Below are positions 23,760 to 33,585 of a stretch of 40,407 bases of DNA, one piece after another. The position numbers were made by a program, and so were the translations under genes. The notes under the pieces are model-generated. The model was not told the DNA's origin, did no database searches, and saw only the letters and a program-made list of their open reading frames with translations. Numbering within the stretch: the stretch's first letter is position 1; each line of letters starts with the position of its first letter. The DNA is from an uncultured Acidimicrobiales bacterium (GTDB taxonomy: Bacteria > Actinomycetota > Acidimicrobiia > Acidimicrobiales > AC-14), in NCBI GenBank assembly GCA_902805665.1, contig CADCTB010000213.1:1-40407 (forward strand). Direction: 5' to 3'.

Positions 23760-23783
23760 CCCCAGGCTTCTAAGGTGAGCCGG

Positions 23784-25016
23784 ATGGCACGGTTGCTCGT
23801 CATCATGGGCTCGGGCGAGACCAGCCCCACCATGAGCAAAGTCCACAGGGCGCTGCTCGCCCGGGCCGGGCGGGGCCCGGCGGTCATGCTGGACACACCG
23901 TTCGGATTCCAGGAGAACGCCGACGACATCTCGGCCAAGGCGGTCGCCTACTTCAAGGAGAGCGTCCAGCACGAGATGGCGGTCGCGTCCTTCCGGACCG
24001 CAGACGGAGTCGACCCGCTGGCGTACGAGACGATGCTCGCCCGGCTGCGAGAGGCGGCCTACGTGTTCGCAGGCCCGGGCAGCCCGTCGTACGCCGTGGC
24101 CCAGTGGTCGGCCAGCCAGGTGCCCGCGGTACTGGCCCAGAAGCTGCGAACTGGCGGCTGTGTCACCTTCGCCAGCGCGGCCGCCTGCACCCTGGGCCCG
24201 TACGCCCTCCCGGTCTACGAGATCTACAAGGCGGGCGACAGCGTGCGGTGGTTGAAGGGGCTGAACCTCACCGGTGAGATCGGCCTGCCCGCGGTGATCG
24301 TCCCCCACTTCAACAACGCGGAAGGTGGGAACCACGACACCAGGTACTGCTACATGGGCGAACGCCGGCTGTCGGTGCTCGAGGCCATGCTCCCGCCGGA
24401 CGTCTTCATCCTGGGTGTCGACGAGCACACCGCCTGCATCCTCGATCTCGACGCCGGCACGGCCACCGTGGCCGGCCTCGGATCCGTAACGGTCCGGCGC
24501 GACGGCCAGATGTCGGCAATCGTCACCGGCACGACCGTGCCCATCGCCGAGCTGACACGGGCTGCGCCGGGGGAGCTCCGTACCGAGGCGCCGCCGCCGT
24601 CGGAGGTCGTTGAAGGCGGGAGGGGCGTCGATCCGCTGGAGGCCGACATCGACCGTTACGAGCGCGCCTTCGACGCCGCCCTGGTGGCCGGCGACGCTGC
24701 GGGTGCGGTGAAGGTGGCGCTGGAGCTCGACGACCTGCTGCACGACTGGTCCCGCGACACGACTCAGTCCGACCTGCTCGACCGAGGCCGGGCCGGGCTC
24801 CGGGCCATGATCGTGCGGCTGGGAGAAGCGGCGGAGACCGGCGTGCGTGATCCCCGCGCCGTCGTCGGGCCGTTCGTCGAAGCTCTGCTCGACGCCCGCC
24901 GCCAGGCCCGGGCCGACGGGCGTTGGGCTGACGCCGACACCCTCCGGAACCGCGTGGTCGCCGCCGGGGTGGAGGTGCGTGACACCGCAGGAGGCACTGA
25001 GTGGCAGCTACGATGA
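23784..25016 (+). CDS. Peptidase S51/cyanophycinase-like protein fused to a CysRS C-terminal-like domain
   Basis: 410 residues. The N-terminal part (about 1-235) resembles type-1 glutamine-amidotransferase-like S51 peptidases: LLVIMGSGETSPTM, YVFAGPGSPSYAVAQW, the nucleophile elbow as FASAAACTLGPYALPV (Ser where the family has GTSAGA), and GVDEHTACILDLDAGTATV. The C-terminal 60 residues (FVEALLDARRQARADGRWADADTLRNRV...TEWQL) match the end of cysteinyl-tRNA synthetase, without its catalytic core. AAGGTGA lies 5-6 nt before ATG 23784. The stop lies inside the direct repeat that also precedes tRNA-Glu. Function unknown; a tRNA- or Cys-related peptidase role is only a guess. Confidence 0.75.
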   Translation: MARLLVIMGSGETSPTMSKVHRALLARAGRGPAVMLDTPFGFQENADDISAKAVAYFKESVQHEMAVASFRTADGVDPLAYETMLARLREAAYVFAGPGSPSYAVAQWSASQVPAVLAQKLRTGGCVTFASAAACTLGPYALPVYEIYKAGDSVRWLKGLNLTGEIGLPAVIVPHFNNAEGGNHDTRYCYMGERRLSVLEAMLPPDVFILGVDEHTACILDLDAGTATVAGLGSVTVRRDGQMSAIVTGTTVPIAELTRAAPGELRTEAPPPSEVVEGGRGVDPLEADIDRYERAFDAALVAGDAAGAVKVALELDDLLHDWSRDTTQSDLLDRGRAGLRAMIVRLGEAAETGVRDPRAVVGPFVEALLDARRQARADGRWADADTLRNRVVAAGVEVRDTAGGTEWQLR

Positions 25017-27252: not shown

Positions 27253-28467
27253 ATGTCCATCAAAACGAAGGCCTCTATTGCTGCGCTCGTCGGGACGCTC
27301 GCCCTGACCGGCGTCGCCTGCGGGGACAGCGGTTCGAGTGATTCCAATGCGTCTGGCGCGGCCCAGAGCAGCCAGTCCGGCGACAAGGTAACCGCAATCC
27401 CCAGCCTCACCGGTGTGGGCACGTCGGTGAAGATCGACGCCGGCACGGCCGAGGCCCTGAAGTCTCTGGGCGTGGCGCTGGCCCCCGTCGGTACGGCGAC
27501 CTTCGAGGCGTCGACCTCCACAATCACCTTCCCGATCACGTCGGGATACGCCGAAATCCACAGCGACCCGAACACCAAGCCCGGCTACATCCAGGGCTCC
27601 ATCGCCCACGAGGACAGCGGCTTCAGCCTGACCGCCGGCTCCACCAAGGTCGAGCTCACCGACTTCGTGGTCGACCCTGGCAACTCGATGCTCTACGGCA
27701 CCGTCGGCGGAACCCCCAAGGTCCCGCTGCTCCTCCTGGACGGCACGGCAGTCAAGGTCGGCAGCGACGGGGCCGGCAACGTTGTCCTCGAGGGCACCGT
27801 CGCCAAGCTCACCGACACCGCAGCCGGTGCCCTGAACAAGGCGTTCAACGTGACCGCCCTCAAGGCAGGCATCCCCCTGGGCTCGGTCAAGCTGGTCGCC
27901 AAGGGCAGCCCTTCGACGTATGACGCGGTGGCTGACAAGACCGCCCGCATCAGCCGCCTGGAGGGCAAGGCCACCAACGTGACCCTCGACGCCGGCACGG
28001 CCCAGGCCCTGCAGACCCTCGGTGTGGCAGTCGCCCCCAGCGGTTCGGCCAAGTTCGACACCGCCACGTCGACCGTCTCCTTCCCGATCACCGGTGGCTA
28101 CGCCGCCATCCACTCCGACCTCGGCTACAAGCCCGGCTACATCGCCGGCACGGTGAACCACGAGGCCAGCGGCCTGACCTTCAGCAAGGGCGACAAGTCG
28201 ATCACCGTCACCGACTTCGTGGTCGACCCCGGAAATTCGATCCTGACCGCCTCTGCCGGCGGCAAGTCAGGCATCCCGCTGCTGTCCCTGGACGGCAAGA
28301 ACGTCAAGGTCAGCATGGAGGGCTCCGACGTGGTCCTTCAGGGCACGGTCGCCAAGCTCACCGCTCCTGGTGCCGCCGCTCTGAACTCCACCTTCGGTGT
28401 CACGGACTTCAAGGAGGGCCTGCCCCTGGGCACCGTCCGCCTGGTCGCCGCCTCCGCCGCCAGCTAG
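27253..28467 (+). CDS. Secreted two-repeat protein, probable lipoprotein
   Basis: 404 residues. The signal peptide MSIKTKASIAALVGTLALTG ends with a lipobox-like GVAC (Cys24), and a Ser/Gly/Ala linker follows. Two homologous domains come next (about 50-215 and 235-402). Each has a variant of LDAGTAxALxxLGVAxAPxG, then the FPIT(S/G)GYA strand, KPGYI(Q/A)G, the V(E/T)LTDFVVDPGNS type turn, a (V/I)PLLxLDG strand, and an ending like ALNxxFxV...G(I/L)PLGxVxLVA. The same domain occurs in other actinobacterial surface proteins of unknown function. Codon use is strongly biased to GTC/ACC/AAG/GGC, suggesting high expression. The gene has a structured leader and a strong palindromic terminator. Confidence 0.8.
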   Translation: MSIKTKASIAALVGTLALTGVACGDSGSSDSNASGAAQSSQSGDKVTAIPSLTGVGTSVKIDAGTAEALKSLGVALAPVGTATFEASTSTITFPITSGYAEIHSDPNTKPGYIQGSIAHEDSGFSLTAGSTKVELTDFVVDPGNSMLYGTVGGTPKVPLLLLDGTAVKVGSDGAGNVVLEGTVAKLTDTAAGALNKAFNVTALKAGIPLGSVKLVAKGSPSTYDAVADKTARISRLEGKATNVTLDAGTAQALQTLGVAVAPSGSAKFDTATSTVSFPITGGYAAIHSDLGYKPGYIAGTVNHEASGLTFSKGDKSITVTDFVVDPGNSILTASAGGKSGIPLLSLDGKNVKVSMEGSDVVLQGTVAKLTAPGAAALNSTFGVTDFKEGLPLGTVRLVAASAAS

Positions 28468-28530: not shown

Positions 28531-29973
28531 TCAGGCATCAGCCTCATGTCGCGGGGTCACGCCCCCACCTCGGGCTGAGACAGCGCTGCGGCGGTTCGGG
28601 TGAGCGGGGACGGCGCCGGCCGTGAGGCGCACACCGAGGAGGCAGATGTCGTCATCCCGGCGAAGGCGGGCGGTGCACGCCGCCAGCAGGTGCTCACAGA
28701 GATCCTCGAGCCTCTCGGGGCCGTCTGCGGCCGCCAGTCGCAGCCGCTCCAGGCCGACCGCCCTCGAAACGGAGCGACTCTGCACCAGCCCGTCGGTGAA
28801 CAGGAGCATCGTCGCATCGGCGGTCAGCTTCAGCGAGCCCTCGCACCGATCGGCCGTCCCCACCGCGCCCAAGGGCGCCCCCCCGCCAATGTCAACGAAG
28901 CGGCCATACGGCGCGCCGCTTCCCAGAAGCAACGGAGGACAGCCCCCGGCGCCGGCGTACCGGACCTCACCGGTGGCCGGCTGGAGGAGCAGGTACAGAA
29001 GCCGCGCCTGGCGGCCCAGCCCGGTGGCCTCGGCGAGGCGGTCGAGGTGACGCACGAGGCGGGACGGCGAGTCGCCGTCGAGGACGGTGTAGGCCCGGAC
29101 TGCAGCCCGTAGATCGCTCATGGCGCCCGCCGCCTCCACGCCCCGTCCGTCCACCTTCCCGACCACGATGCCCAGGGCCCCTCCGTCAAGAGGAACCACA
29201 TCGAACCAGTCGCCACCCCTCTCGATGAACACGCCCCAGGGGCGCAGCTGACCGACGAGGTTCACGCCGGAAACGGACAGCGTGTCCGTCAGGGCGGGGG
29301 CCCGGTGGGTCTGGAGGCGGGACTCGGCGTGGTGCTTGGCATAGCTGCGTAGGTCGTCGAGGGCCTCGCTGGGCTTCACCGGCTCATCGATCCCACGCGT
29401 CGCGATCGGCGGGGAGCCACATGTCGAGGCCTCGCCGGCGTCGAAGTCCCGGTGCCGTCCGGCGTCGTCACCCACTCCGCCGAGCTCCTCACGGACCATC
29501 TCCAGGATGGGGTCGAGACAGGCGGCGAGCTCCTCACTGAAGCCGAGGCCGAAGGAGGCTTCGGCCGGCTCGACCTCGATGACCACGGTGTCGACCGGCA
29601 GGCCTCCCCAGTGGCGGGCCATGGCCAGCGTGTGGTCGAGGTCGACCAGGCCCATCACCGACTCCTCGACACTGCGGTGGACCGCAGCGGGCGCCGGTGG
29701 AGTGAGGTCCACCTGGTAGCGCCGGAGCGTGGCGGGAGGGTCGAGGTCGCGGGCCACGGCCCCCAGGAGCACGACCTTGGCCGGTCGCAGCTCCTGGAGG
29801 CGGTGCAGCACCAGCGGTGCGGAGAACGAGAGGTCCTCGACCACCACTCCCTCGGGCCACTCCAGCTGCTGGAAGTACTCGACCACCTTCCGGCCGAAGT
29901 CGAGGTCCCGCATCCCCGGCCGGCCGAAGCCGCCGATCAGGACGCGGCACGGCGTCACGCTCCGGCCGGTCAT
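28531..29973 (-). CDS. Hydrogenase maturation endopeptidase fused to a SpoIIE/RsbU-like PP2C phosphatase
   Basis: 480 residues. Residues 1-170 match HybD/HupD-type maturation proteases, which trim the large-subunit C-terminus after nickel insertion: CRVLIGGFGRPGMRDLDFGR, then VVEDLSFSAPLVLHRL, ALGAVARDL-type strand, TLAMARHWGGLPVDTVVIEVEP. A linker (about 171-265) leads to a PPM/SpoIIE domain: GGDWFDVVPLDGG, LRAAVRAYTVLDG, LLYLLLQPATGEVRYAGAGG, LLFTDGLVQSRSV and DDDICLLGVR. The usual GDVxGHG metal motif reads GKVDGRG, losing the standard Asp. ATG 29973 overlaps the hydrogenase stop (ATGA), so both are coupled. I know separate families; this fusion is unusual. Role as coupled maturation and signalling is inference. 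Confidence 0.85.
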   Translation of the reverse strand: MTGRSVTPCRVLIGGFGRPGMRDLDFGRKVVEYFQQLEWPEGVVVEDLSFSAPLVLHRLQELRPAKVVLLGAVARDLDPPATLRRYQVDLTPPAPAAVHRSVEESVMGLVDLDHTLAMARHWGGLPVDTVVIEVEPAEASFGLGFSEELAACLDPILEMVREELGGVGDDAGRHRDFDAGEASTCGSPPIATRGIDEPVKPSEALDDLRSYAKHHAESRLQTHRAPALTDTLSVSGVNLVGQLRPWGVFIERGGDWFDVVPLDGGALGIVVGKVDGRGVEAAGAMSDLRAAVRAYTVLDGDSPSRLVRHLDRLAEATGLGRQARLLYLLLQPATGEVRYAGAGGCPPLLLGSGAPYGRFVDIGGGAPLGAVGTADRCEGSLKLTADATMLLFTDGLVQSRSVSRAVGLERLRLAAADGPERLEDLCEHLLAACTARLRRDDDICLLGVRLTAGAVPAHPNRRSAVSARGGGVTPRHEADA

Positions 29974-31850
29974 TCGAGGGTGCATCCGCAGGAGTTGATC
30001 TCCCGGCTGATGATGCCCCGGCCTGTGTCCATGTGGGTGGTGCAGGGCATGCACGGGTCGAAGCTGCGGATGGACCGCAGGATGTCGATGCCCTTCACCT
30101 GGTCGTCGTGGACCGACTCCAGGATGGGGGTGTCGACGATGGACTGCTCGTAGGGGCCCAGACCACCGAACGGGTCGGTGGGCGAGGCGTTGATCGTGGA
30201 CGGGGTGTTGATCTGGTAGTTCACGATCTTGCCCTTGTCCATGACCATGTGGTGGACCAGATAGCCCCGGCTGGCTTCCCAGAAGCCCGCCGAGACCCGC
30301 TCGTCGCGAGGGATCCTGAACGGGGTGTGGACCCGTGTCTCGCCCTTGCGCCAGTACTCGAAGGCCTTCAAGAGGCAGTTCATGCCGATGGTCGCCACGA
30401 AGGCCATGGAGTAGGCCCGGGCCCGATTCCGCTCCAGCGCGTTGAGCGTGCGCGGAAGGGGCCAGAACAGCTCGGTCTCCGGCAGGGCGTGGCGGGGCAG
30501 GACGAGCTGGAGGCCGTCGCCGGTCGGGTTGCAGAACGGGTTCTCGGCGTAGTCACCGCGAAGGGCGGTGCCCCACAGCTGTCCGTAGGCGCCGGTCTCC
30601 ACCACCTGGCGGTCCCAGCGGGGAGCAGTGGACCAGGTGTACTTGTCCTTGAAGTTGGTCCCGGTCGGCTTCGGGAGCGTGGTCTTGTTCCACGCGTGGT
30701 ACGGCGACAGAGGATTGCCGAGGGCATCGGCGCGGTAGCGCTGGGGGCCGACCTTGGTCCAGTCGTCGTAGAAGGAGTGCTCGACGAACTCCTCCATGCC
30801 GATGTTGATGTCGGTCAGGTTCGTGGTGACCAACTTGCCCTCGATGATCACCGAGGGGCTGGCCCAGCGGGCGTTCCCCCACTGGTTGCAGTTCGAGTAG
30901 GTGGCGTCGTAGATCTCGGAGTTGTCGTAGATGCCGGTCTGGATCAGGCTCGTGGGTCGGGCTCCGACCTGCTCGTAGGCGGGATTCGCCTCCAGGAAGA
31001 AGTCGCACAGGTCGTCCCAGATCCGACAGATCACCTTGCACCAGTCGAGGATCTTGCCCAGCTGCATGTAGTACTCGTTGAAGGTCGAGGTCGTCACCGT
31101 GGTCGACATCCCTCCGGGCACGATCGTCGACGGGTGGGGGAACTTGCCGAACATCAGCTGGCACATGATCCGCCCCACCCGGGTCCACTCGAGGGCCTCG
31201 AGGTAGATCTTCCCGGTCAGCGGGTTGAGCGCGTCCATGAGATCTTTCATGGTGGTGTAGCCGTGGAGCGCGCCGTGCGGGGCCAGAGTCTTCTCCGCCC
31301 TGGTGACCAGCTCGGGATTGGTGACGCTGACCAACGCGGTCGAGTAGTCCGGCCCGGCCAGGAGCCCCAGGTGCAAGGGACGGTCGTAGAACATCTCGCC
31401 GACCTCGCCCAGGTTGCGGACCTCCACCCCCAGCGGCGGGGGGCAGACGCCGAAGGCCTGCTCGATGTTGAGCGCGGAGCACGACGCGTGGGTGCCGCCG
31501 CACACCCCGCAGGCGCGGGAGGAGATGTCGATGGCGTCACGGGGGTCACGACCCTCGAGGATGACCTCGTAACCCCGGAAGAGCATGGCCCGGGCGTGGG
31601 CGTCGACCGCCCGACGGTTCTCCAGGTCGAGCACCGTGTGGACGGCGAGGGCGCCGGCCACCCGCGTCATGGGGTCGATGTTCCAGTCGCGTAGGCGAGG
31701 GGGCGCCGCGAGTTGGGCGCCGGGCCCTCCCTTCCGCCGCACATAGCCCTTGGGCTGGGCGACGGTGACCGAGTAGGGATCGACGACGCCGGCCCGAAGC
31801 CGGGCCTTGCCGGCGTCGTCGAACTCGATGGGCAGATTCTTGAAGCACAC
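29970..31850 (-). CDS. [NiFe]-hydrogenase large subunit
   Basis: 626 residues, the H2-activating subunit with the NiFe(CN)2CO site. L1 is RACGVCGGTH (C114, C117, H121) and L2 is DPCMPCTTH (C600, C603, H606), so all four nickel-binding cysteines are present. Past His606 there is a 20-residue extension ending NSCGCTLE, the expected peptide removed by the maturation protease. The body has the group 1-like blocks DPMTRVAGALAVHTVLDLEN, FRGYEVILEGRDPRDA and ERNRARAY. I recall similar blocks in actinobacterial high-affinity (1h-type) enzymes, but subgroup is not settled. GTG 31850 has AAGGAG about 7 nt upstream. No small-subunit gene adjoins it; upstream is a divergent regulator. Confidence 0.92.
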   Translation of the reverse strand: MCFKNLPIEFDDAGKARLRAGVVDPYSVTVAQPKGYVRRKGGPGAQLAAPPRLRDWNIDPMTRVAGALAVHTVLDLENRRAVDAHARAMLFRGYEVILEGRDPRDAIDISSRACGVCGGTHASCSALNIEQAFGVCPPPLGVEVRNLGEVGEMFYDRPLHLGLLAGPDYSTALVSVTNPELVTRAEKTLAPHGALHGYTTMKDLMDALNPLTGKIYLEALEWTRVGRIMCQLMFGKFPHPSTIVPGGMSTTVTTSTFNEYYMQLGKILDWCKVICRIWDDLCDFFLEANPAYEQVGARPTSLIQTGIYDNSEIYDATYSNCNQWGNARWASPSVIIEGKLVTTNLTDINIGMEEFVEHSFYDDWTKVGPQRYRADALGNPLSPYHAWNKTTLPKPTGTNFKDKYTWSTAPRWDRQVVETGAYGQLWGTALRGDYAENPFCNPTGDGLQLVLPRHALPETELFWPLPRTLNALERNRARAYSMAFVATIGMNCLLKAFEYWRKGETRVHTPFRIPRDERVSAGFWEASRGYLVHHMVMDKGKIVNYQINTPSTINASPTDPFGGLGPYEQSIVDTPILESVHDDQVKGIDILRSIRSFDPCMPCTTHMDTGRGIISREINSCGCTLE

Positions 31851-31972
31851 GGCAGAGCTCCTTCGGGGAAATCGCTGTGCTCAACACCCTGTCAGCATGC
31901 TGTTGCTATCGTCTATATGCATAAGCTCTGCTGATCGCGACGCCGGTTGGCTCCGGCCTGGAAAGGAGGACG
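31851..31972. promoter_or_regulatory. Divergent promoter region with two small palindromes
   Basis: 122 nt, AT-richer than surroundings, between the hydrogenase and the regulator. It holds CAGCATGCTG (31893-31902) and TATGCATA (31916-31923), both perfect palindromes 23 nt apart, centre to centre, about two helical turns. For the plus strand TGTCAG (31890) and CTATAT (31913) with 17 nt spacing could be -35/-10. These are natural operator candidates for the XRE regulator, autoregulation included. Confidence 0.45.
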
Positions 31973-33112
31973 ATGGACGGCATGGGTGATCGGGTGCCCA
32001 GCGGGGTGCCCGACGTCGACGAGCTGCTCGGCGGTCTGATCCTCGGGGACAATGTCGTCTGGGTGCTCGATGACGCCGACGTCGTCCGCCACCTCGAGGA
32101 CGCGCTGATCCGGGAGGTCCGAGCCCGGGGCGAGGTTGTCTTCTATGTGACCGCCGGCCCAGACCCCGCCCGGCTGCAGGCCCGCCTCGGTCCGGGGGTG
32201 ACGGTGCTCGACGCCCGGGCCCGCGGCCACTACGGCGACGCCGCAGTGCTCGAGACGGCCGTCATCGAGGGGGCAAGGAACAACCCACCCGGATATGTCA
32301 TCTTCGACGGTCTCGTGCAGTTCGCCCGCCGCTGGGGCACGGCCAAGGCCGTCGCCTTCTTCAGTCGGGTGTGTCCGCGGCTCTTCGACCTGGGGGCCGT
32401 CGCCTACTGGCGGGCCCCACGGGCCGAGCTGGGATCTTCGTTCATCGAGCAGGTGACGAACGTGACCCAGTGCGTGCTGGAGGTGGCCGGGGGCCACCTG
32501 AGAGTGATCAAGGCCGAGGGCCGTCCGGCCTCCGTACAGGGTCGTCTCCTTCGCCTGGACCTCACCGCCGGCGTCCTCCGATTGGAGGACGAAAGGGCCC
32601 TTGGACGCCTCGGCCAGGGCCTGGAGCGGGTGCGCCGGGAGCGACACCTGAACCAGAGCGACCTCGCTCGCCTGGCCGGCGTCTCTCAGAGCGCAGTGTC
32701 CCAGGCCGAAGCCGGTCGGCGCGGACTGTCACTCGAGACCGTGATGCTGCTGTCCGAACGCCTCGGCATGGGGCTGGACGAACTGCTCGCCTCCGCACCC
32801 GCCGGTGGGTACGTGTTGGCCCGACGCCCCCGAACGGTCGGTGACACCAGCACCGCCCTCCTCGATGACCCGAAGGCCGGCCTGCGGGCCTACCTGGTCC
32901 GTTTGGAGCCGGGCGAATCCGGCGCCCCGGACCGGCCCCATAAGGGAGCGGAGCTGGTGCTGGTGGCCTCCGGGCTCGTCCAGCTGACCATCGGCTCGGA
33001 CACGCCCGTCATGCGGGCCGGGGACGCGGCCCTGGCCACCAGCGTCGGCGTGTCCGGCTGGCGCAACCTCACGAACGCCACAGCTTTCCTCTTCTGGGTG
33101 CTTCGCGACTAG
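31973..33112 (+). CDS. Regulator with degenerate KaiC-like domain, XRE helix-turn-helix and cupin
   Basis: 379 residues. 1-205 resembles KaiC/RecA-like ATPases: GVPDVDELLGG is their usual opening, YVIFDG (108-113) sits at the Walker B place, but the Walker A loop is replaced by GDNVVWVLDDADV with no GKT/S. 212-270 is a clear XRE domain (LNQSDLARLAGVSQSAVSQAE). 300-378 is a cupin (AYLVRLEPGES, HKGAELVLVASGLVQLTIG, GWRNLTNATAFLFWVL), a common ligand-sensing fold. AAAGGAGG lies 3 nt before ATG 31973; ATG 31982 is the alternative. Divergent from the hydrogenase over 122 nt. I infer a repressor or activator of the hydrogenase operon responding to a ligand bound by the cupin and an inactive nucleotide fold. 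Confidence 0.85.
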   Translation: MDGMGDRVPSGVPDVDELLGGLILGDNVVWVLDDADVVRHLEDALIREVRARGEVVFYVTAGPDPARLQARLGPGVTVLDARARGHYGDAAVLETAVIEGARNNPPGYVIFDGLVQFARRWGTAKAVAFFSRVCPRLFDLGAVAYWRAPRAELGSSFIEQVTNVTQCVLEVAGGHLRVIKAEGRPASVQGRLLRLDLTAGVLRLEDERALGRLGQGLERVRRERHLNQSDLARLAGVSQSAVSQAEAGRRGLSLETVMLLSERLGMGLDELLASAPAGGYVLARRPRTVGDTSTALLDDPKAGLRAYLVRLEPGESGAPDRPHKGAELVLVASGLVQLTIGSDTPVMRAGDAALATSVGVSGWRNLTNATAFLFWVLRD

Positions 33113-33204: not shown

Positions 33205-33585
33205 ATGAGCGCATCTCTGCAGTTGTCGGTGCATGAACCAGTTCTCACTCCCGACGTGCTTGGCCGGCTTCGCGCCCTGCTCGTCGGCGAGGCGGCAACA
33301 GTGACGGCCCGCCGGACCGAGCACGAAGCGTTGGCCGAACAGCTCCGCGGCCTTCTCGATGCCGACAGCGTCATCGAAAGGGAGCTCGCCGAGACGGGCG
33401 CCGTTCGGGCCGCGGAAACGTTGGCGGACATCCGGCACGCGCTGCATCGACTCGAGATCGGCGCGTACGGATCCTGTGAGGCGTGCGGGCTGCCGATGCC
33501 ATTGGCGCGGTTGGAGGCCATTCCGTCGGCTCGCCTGTGCGTGGCATGCACCGGACGCCGCGCCGGCTGCGCCCGATCGTTCTAG
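33205..33585 (+). CDS. DksA/TraR-type C4 zinc-finger protein
   Basis: A 126-residue protein: a helical first half (LTPDVLGRLRALLVGEAATV...LRGLLDADSVIERELAETG), then LADIRHALHRLEIGAYGSCE and the zinc finger CEACG-PMPLARLEAIPSARLCVACT. DksA-like proteins bind RNA polymerase and modulate rRNA and amino-acid promoters, often with ppGpp; actinobacteria use other factors for ppGpp, so the effect here is open. AGGAG precedes ATG 33205. The stop lies 4 nt from the end of the convergent membrane-protein gene. Confidence 0.88.
   Translation: MSASLQLSVHEPVLTPDVLGRLRALLVGEAATVTARRTEHEALAEQLRGLLDADSVIERELAETGAVRAAETLADIRHALHRLEIGAYGSCEACGLPMPLARLEAIPSARLCVACTGRRAGCARSF

Follow-up and report, generated by a model that had tools for sequence, protein, structure and literature searches.

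[NiFe] hydrogenases are treated as pairs of large and small subunits that are encoded together. A 40.4-kb contig of the genome coded G000, from an uncultured Acidimicrobiales bacterium, carries a large subunit (LSU) gene with no small subunit (SSU) gene beside it and raises the question of what such an orphan LSU does and with which partner. The whole contig (C213) was analyzed and is referred to as the window. The LSU gene is followed by a gene joining a maturation-protease-like protein (PROT) to a PP2C domain and is faced by a divergent regulator (REG). This three-gene observation was made in the original prediction and is confirmed here together with its coordinates. The interpretation attached to it holds for the orphan LSU, the dedicated regulator and the unusual combination but not for a self-contained module with dedicated processing and a signalling enzyme.

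Architecture of the Locus

The orphan LSU gene occupies positions 29970–31850 of the minus strand and encodes a protein of 626 amino acids matching PF00374 (E = 2e-63). Translation begins at a GTG codon with MCFKNLPIEF, which is kept in relatives, and both nickel CxxC motifs (CGVC and DPCMPC) are present, bearing out the description of an LSU with all four nickel cysteines. The fusion gene lies downstream on the same strand (28531–29973) with its ATG start overlapping the LSU stop as ATGA (...CTCGAATGACC...), and the proposed coupling is real as read in the sequence. REG (31973–33112, plus strand, 379 amino acids) was delineated by Pfam, homologue alignment, and structure prediction and is separated from the LSU by a divergent promoter region of 122 bp (31851–31972), an intergenic arrangement kept in eight loci. 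A DksA/TraR-type C4 zinc-finger protein (33205–33585, plus strand; PF01258) is encoded directly after REG. Elsewhere in the window, a CysS_C (cysteinyl-tRNA-synthetase C-terminal) domain is placed behind a long unrelated N-terminal part in an unusual combination (23775–25016), and a probable lipoprotein of 404 amino acids with two similar halves and no Pfam match is encoded at 27253–28467.

Large and Small Subunits in the Genome

A search of the genome with PF01058 and PF14720 shows its only hydrogenase SSU on contig C179 and none on either side of the window LSU, in agreement with the reported lack of a flanking SSU gene and with the suggestion that the small subunit might be elsewhere. C179 carries this SSU and an LSU with hypD, hypE, and hypF, HypD being a single gene there. 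The HypD, HypE, and HypF reference sequences have no match in the window, and the claim that hyp genes are missing stands for these three. C179 ends inside its LSU. Contig C150 opens with an LSU C terminus, behind which lie in turn an unfused PROT, a gene with a NifU domain, an unknown gene, an intact protease of the HycI type, and a TPR gene, and because this is the canonical order in relatives C150 is probably the continuation of the C179 operon. Complete LSUs are located on the window contig and on C58, and LSU C termini are located at the ends of C28 and C115. The totals for G000 are at least five LSU C termini and at least three LSU N termini, giving at least five LSU loci, against one SSU of the clade. 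Another copy in G000 is 91% identical to the window LSU. On C58 a second REG (82% identical) faces its LSU and the fusion is absent, and on C28 a second protease-PP2C fusion comes directly after the LSU end. Since the genome encodes an SSU-LSU operon of this clade, together with hypD/E/F, outside the window contig, the window module is an accessory paralogue and not self-contained as proposed.

A short stretch on contig C5 (10100–10345) is 65% identical to the N-terminal part of the SSU and has an internal stop codon; it is possibly the remnant of another SSU copy. Two genomes (L014 6887–10253 and L059 6637–9529) have phosphonate-binding-type and AurF-like genes in common near the SSU-LSU operon.

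Active Site of the Orphan Large Subunit

The nearest solved structure to the window LSU is the R. eutropha AH enzyme of group 1h (PDB code 5aa5), and in the tree its clade is sister to 1h-like LSUs of the same order, with about 40–44% identity to them. The window LSU, in this separate clade, is probably the large subunit of a group-1h-like [NiFe] hydrogenase. A difference with other hydrogenases occurs at the canopy arginine (Arg-509 of E. coli Hyd-1), which is absent from the window LSU with SPTD present instead of SPRD. Threonine occupies this position in every LSU copy of the genus, the SSU-linked one included (window, L014, L068, and L084), and some further SSU-linked LSUs within the order have leucine, valine, or glutamine instead. 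All three LSU copies of genome G006, the operon copy among them, have threonine for Arg-509 and asparagine for Asp-574. As the threonine is also present in the LSU that G000 encodes next to its SSU, the loss of Arg-509 is a lineage trait not linked to the orphan state and does not count as evidence of a new orphan role. Other changes are missing from SSU-linked LSUs, with Asp-407 replaced by serine, cysteine, or alanine in 7 of 12 orphan LSUs and HATV replaced by HASC in several, and these recurrent orphan-only changes could mark a different partner.

The Protease-PP2C Fusion Protein

The gene downstream of the LSU matches TIGR00072 (E = 4e-13, barely above its cut-off) and the SpoIIE/PP2C family PF07228 (E = 2e-32). 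The AlphaFold model has a mean pLDDT of 44 and is too poor for use, so the domain assignments rest on sequence only. The HycI/HyaD-type maturation-protease-like domain (29482–29940, minus strand) is defined by its TIGR00072 match and by an alignment that includes 5ttx and relatives, and the SpoIIE/RsbU-type PP2C domain (28624–29187, minus strand) is defined by PF07228 and by alignment to Rv1364c (PDB code 3ke6). TIGR00072 and the 5ttx alignment place PROT in the same family as the HyaD/HybD/HycI endopeptidases (PDB codes 1cfz and 5ttx), but equivalents of the three nickel ligands (Glu-16, Asp-62, and His-93 of HybD) are replaced in every aligned PROT, fused and unfused, the window protein having Leu, Gly, and Gly at these positions. 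The unfused PROT of the main operon likewise lacks the ligands, and a separate intact HyaD/HycI-type protease encoded there keeps them, which removes the basis for dedicated processing by the fusion.

The PP2C domain is matched by PF07228 over its full length and retains the GGDWFD, TDG, and DDD motifs. In the window protein the metal-binding Asp of the GD motif is replaced by lysine (GK), leaving the set of metal aspartates incomplete, and this argues against the signalling enzyme that had been proposed. The lysine and the fusion to the protease-like domain distinguish it from RsbU/SpoIIE-type PP2C proteins such as Rv1364c. The same Asp is asparagine in two relatives, a different Asp is lost in G321, and all four motifs are intact in the G006 homologue, suggesting that phosphatase function has probably survived only in G006-type members.

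The Regulator REG

REG is composed of a KaiC/RecA-fold domain without a Walker A motif (32006–32602; structure prediction and homologue alignment), an XRE helix-turn-helix (32621–32785; HTH_3, E = 2e-12), and a cupin domain (32894–33100; Cupin_2, E = 2e-8), all on the plus strand. The layout originally read from the sequence is thus recovered, the last two domains by Pfam and the KaiC-like part, for which the Pfam search gives no match, by structure prediction. The first 210 residues are predicted to adopt a KaiC/RecA fold with pLDDT mostly 70–86 over residues 31–180, and a fold search with the N-terminal model gives a VIA Z of 18.6 to 2dr3 and 17–18 to KaiC. A sequence search of the PDB with the same part gives chance matches only. 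The Walker A P-loop is absent from the aligned REG homologues with a readable N terminus and from six more distant ones. REG is therefore predicted to share the fold of KaiC and the archaeal KaiC-like ATPases (PDB code 2dr3) but differs in having no Walker A and in being joined to XRE and cupin domains. As in XRE-cupin regulators such as PuuR, the helix-turn-helix is followed by the cupin, although the additional N-terminal KaiC-fold domain and the gene context are different. The loss of key residues in PROT, PP2C, and REG means that "protease," "phosphatase," and "KaiC" here name folds, and the protease-like domain, the window phosphatase, and REG appear to be mostly pseudo-enzymes.

Relatives of REG with 38–47% identity occur in Acidimicrobiales-type genomes where the clade LSU was not found and adjoin DksA/TraR-like and glutamate dehydrogenase genes. 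A DksA/TraR family gene is located beside REG in eight loci, and glutamate dehydrogenase genes adjoin REG relatives in L130, L131, L134–L136, and L138. These contexts indicate that REG is older than its hydrogenase link and that its history is not specific to hydrogenases.

A Putative Operator in the REG Promoters

Comparison of eight LSU-REG intergenic regions yielded a palindromic core, AGCNNNGCTWA. In the window this is present as the putative REG operator AGCAGAGCTTA (31922–31932, minus strand), assigned from motif counts in REG promoters and constituting the one match in the window compared with 0.30 expected. Of 23 loci, 15 have the palindrome upstream of REG (0.15 expected), some of them in genomes that lack this LSU, and it is present in 7 of the 10 loci of the order that lie outside the motif definition (REG identity 38–58%). 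It was not found upstream of REG in L131, L132, and L134 within the order or upstream of the more distant relatives in L236–L240, and it is absent from the SSU-LSU operons and other orphan LSU loci examined. In L134 it is placed about 75 bp upstream of the glutamate dehydrogenase gene instead of REG, a hint that the ancestral role was related to nitrogen.

An extended pattern, AGCNNNGCTWAY, has seven matches genome-wide, two of which are the two REG-LSU intergenic regions. The remaining five are not clearly in promoters and a reversed-pattern control gives 29 matches, and a larger REG regulon in this genome was rejected on both counts. REG combines a helix-turn-helix with a palindrome in its own promoter, as is characteristic of an XRE autoregulator, and putatively binds there. 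Given the palindromes in REG promoters and the few sites genome-wide, the best reading is that REG regulates its own gene and the divergent LSU and hardly anything else in this genome.

Distribution and Evolution of the Large Subunits

An LSU of this clade is present in 29 of 397 genomes sampled from the order. In the order-wide search the SSU is directly upstream of the LSU in 14 of 14 loci with enough flanking sequence to be assessed, PROT is downstream in nearly all of these, and where sequence allows the order after SSU-LSU is PROT-NifU-g1539-HyaD-TPR. SSU-LSU-PROT is the rule and orphan LSUs are the exception, and the LSU-PROT part of the window resembles that segment copied without its SSU. 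A clade SSU, whole or partial, is present in 10 of 10 tested genomes holding this LSU clade. Orphan LSUs occur in families f1, f10, and f14 and, outside the order, in f77. The neighborhood comparison of the closest LSUs, which had been recommended as a check, shows the divergent REG/orphan-LSU pair in eight loci (the window, C58, G001, G002, G006, G111, G321, and G529) representing seven species and four families. Its recurrence, partly inside long contigs, indicates that the pair is not an assembly accident. The protease-PP2C fusion is found twice in G000 (window and C28) and in G002:C52, G006:C1, and G321:C234, whereas G001 and G111 keep REG and LSU with the fusion absent or decayed. Long contigs of G002 hold four complete orphan LSUs, and two further LSU C termini are present in this genome. 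Other orphan LSUs are placed beside a metallo-beta-lactamase-like gene (C58 and G002:C53) or a pyridoxamine-oxidase-like gene (C115, G002:C20, and G001:C7), both named from sequence inspection. An alternative-oxidase-family gene (PF01786) is located directly 3' of the fusion gene in G002 (L087 13576–14286).

The tree rules out orphan LSUs as one clade, as orphans group by family with the SSU-linked copy, some of them on longer branches. Between families REG identity is 57–68% and LSU identity 73–79%, and the lower similarity of REG suggests that the locus is older than the grouping in the LSU tree. LSU copies within G000 share 63–122 identical bases at their 3' ends, and the 3'-end pS is low in several LSU pairs. 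Grouping by family, private changes shared within lineages, and identical 3' ends together point to concerted evolution or repeated within-lineage duplication.

Between the window LSU and its congeneric copies dN/dS is 0.11–0.17, calculated from partly saturated, codon-biased synonymous sites, with a pS of 0.35–0.41. Over most of the gene pS is 0.3–0.4, while the protein stays about 90% identical. The window LSU differs at 5 of the 302 positions that do not vary among operonic (SSU-linked) LSUs, the leave-one-out departure among operonic LSUs themselves being 0–5%, and orphan LSUs retain 97–100% of the invariant positions. Twelve orphan copies have long open frames with every readable nickel cysteine present. 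The low dN/dS and the few departures from invariant positions argue that the orphan is under selection to stay a normal LSU, and by these measures orphan LSUs are under purifying selection. Gene conversion could nevertheless keep an orphan alike without a function of its own.

Discussion

The reading that best accounts for the locus, with a probability of about 0.55, is that REG, a local autoregulator, has been recruited to govern an alternative LSU, which in turn shares the single SSU of the genome. Subunit sharing itself, at the same probability, is suggested by several LSU loci against one clade SSU, by the SSU in every tested genome with this LSU clade, by the conservation of the REG/LSU pair across species with purifying selection on the orphan, and by lineage-private active-site changes common to orphan and SSU-linked copies. 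The window LSU would be an accessory alternative subunit that most likely assembles with the SSU and the Hyp and protease set of the main operon. REG would bind AGCNNNGCTWA through its XRE domain and control its own gene and the divergent LSU, with the cupin and P-loop-less KaiC-fold domains sensing a ligand or metabolic state. Translational coupling would make LSU and fusion protein together, the pseudo-protease domain holding or escorting the LSU precursor and the PP2C-derived domain serving as a protein-binding module. The matured orphan LSU would then replace the main-operon LSU on the shared SSU and give an isoform for another condition. A fuller version, in which one SSU serves four to six gene-conversion-homogenized, interchangeable LSU paralogues, at least one of them under a REG switch with a private operator and a pseudo-protease/pseudo-phosphatase escort, is more tentative.

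Regulatory H2-sensing hydrogenases of the HoxBC/HupUV type have an SSU and a partner histidine kinase encoded together. The window likewise places an LSU-family protein with regulatory genes but differs in having no SSU, and none of the neighbors scanned at the orphan loci was identified as a histidine kinase. An orphan LSU acting without an SSU as a stand-alone sensor of nickel, H2, or redox state, with the fusion reading its maturation state and passing it to REG or an anti-sigma system, would fit the link of an LSU-related domain to an RsbU/SpoIIE-type domain, the divergent regulator, the seemingly complete PP2C motifs of G006, and the orphan-specific changes at Asp-407. It is less supported than the sharing of an SSU and appears doubtful, as a metal Asp is missing from the window PP2C and another from that of G321, G001 and G111 keep REG and LSU with the fusion absent or decayed, the history of REG is not tied to hydrogenases, no recurrent kinase or anti-sigma partner was seen among the neighbors scanned, and the orphan retains positions invariant in SSU-linked LSUs. 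It is unlikely that the extra LSUs are decaying duplicates or gene-conversion reservoirs with little function of their own that recombination keeps alike. The identical 3' bases of the G000 copies, the low 3' pS of several pairs, the lineage-private changes common to all copies, and the longer branches of some orphans would be expected in that case, but the twelve orphans whose open frames are long and whose readable nickel cysteines are all intact would not, and a pS of 0.3–0.4 over most of the gene with a protein about 90% identical indicates largely independent evolution. The loci are also kept between species, with the operator conserved between REG and LSU.

Loss of the Arg-509 equivalent, together with Asn at Asp-574 in G006, might be taken to mean that the LSU has turned to other chemistry and is no longer a hydrogenase. 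This is very improbable because the SSU-linked LSU of the same genome shares the threonine and some other SSU-linked relatives have Leu, Val, or Gln. An assembly or binning artefact, in which a contig break cost the locus its SSU or the contig came from another organism, is hardly credible. The genome is a MAG of 227 contigs with 4.4% contamination and one contig (C179) does stop within the main-operon LSU, but the same REG-LSU-fusion arrangement is found inside contigs of 198 kb (G002) and 221 kb (G006), which largely refutes the misassembled boundary considered originally, and the window LSU is located 8.6 kb from the nearer contig end and has the 91% identical copy in the same genome.

Among known systems the actinobacterial-type group 1h (Hhy) enzymes, such as R. 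eutropha AH and M. smegmatis Hhy, are close to the present hydrogenase, which resembles them in its nearest solved structure (R. eutropha AH) and in the hyp genes of the main operon. The NifU-domain gene of that operon resembles HhyE, a NifU-domain protein (PMC6883350). The window differs in the missing SSU, the Arg-509 to Thr replacement, and the separate clade. Among openly licensed papers none was found joining a hydrogenase maturation protease with SpoIIE, none on a KaiC, XRE, and cupin regulator, and nothing relevant on orphan large subunits. The parts are thus known families in an arrangement that, as originally supposed, has no counterpart described in the openly licensed papers searched, which as the only literature covered are weak evidence of absence.

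A lineage with many LSUs and one SSU, in which LSU loci are kept across species, breaks the pair rule and opens subunit exchange to testing. That the canopy arginine is naturally replaced in an SSU-bearing lineage bears on how essential this residue is for H2 activation, and the REG family with its palindrome provides a concrete handle in organisms without genetics.
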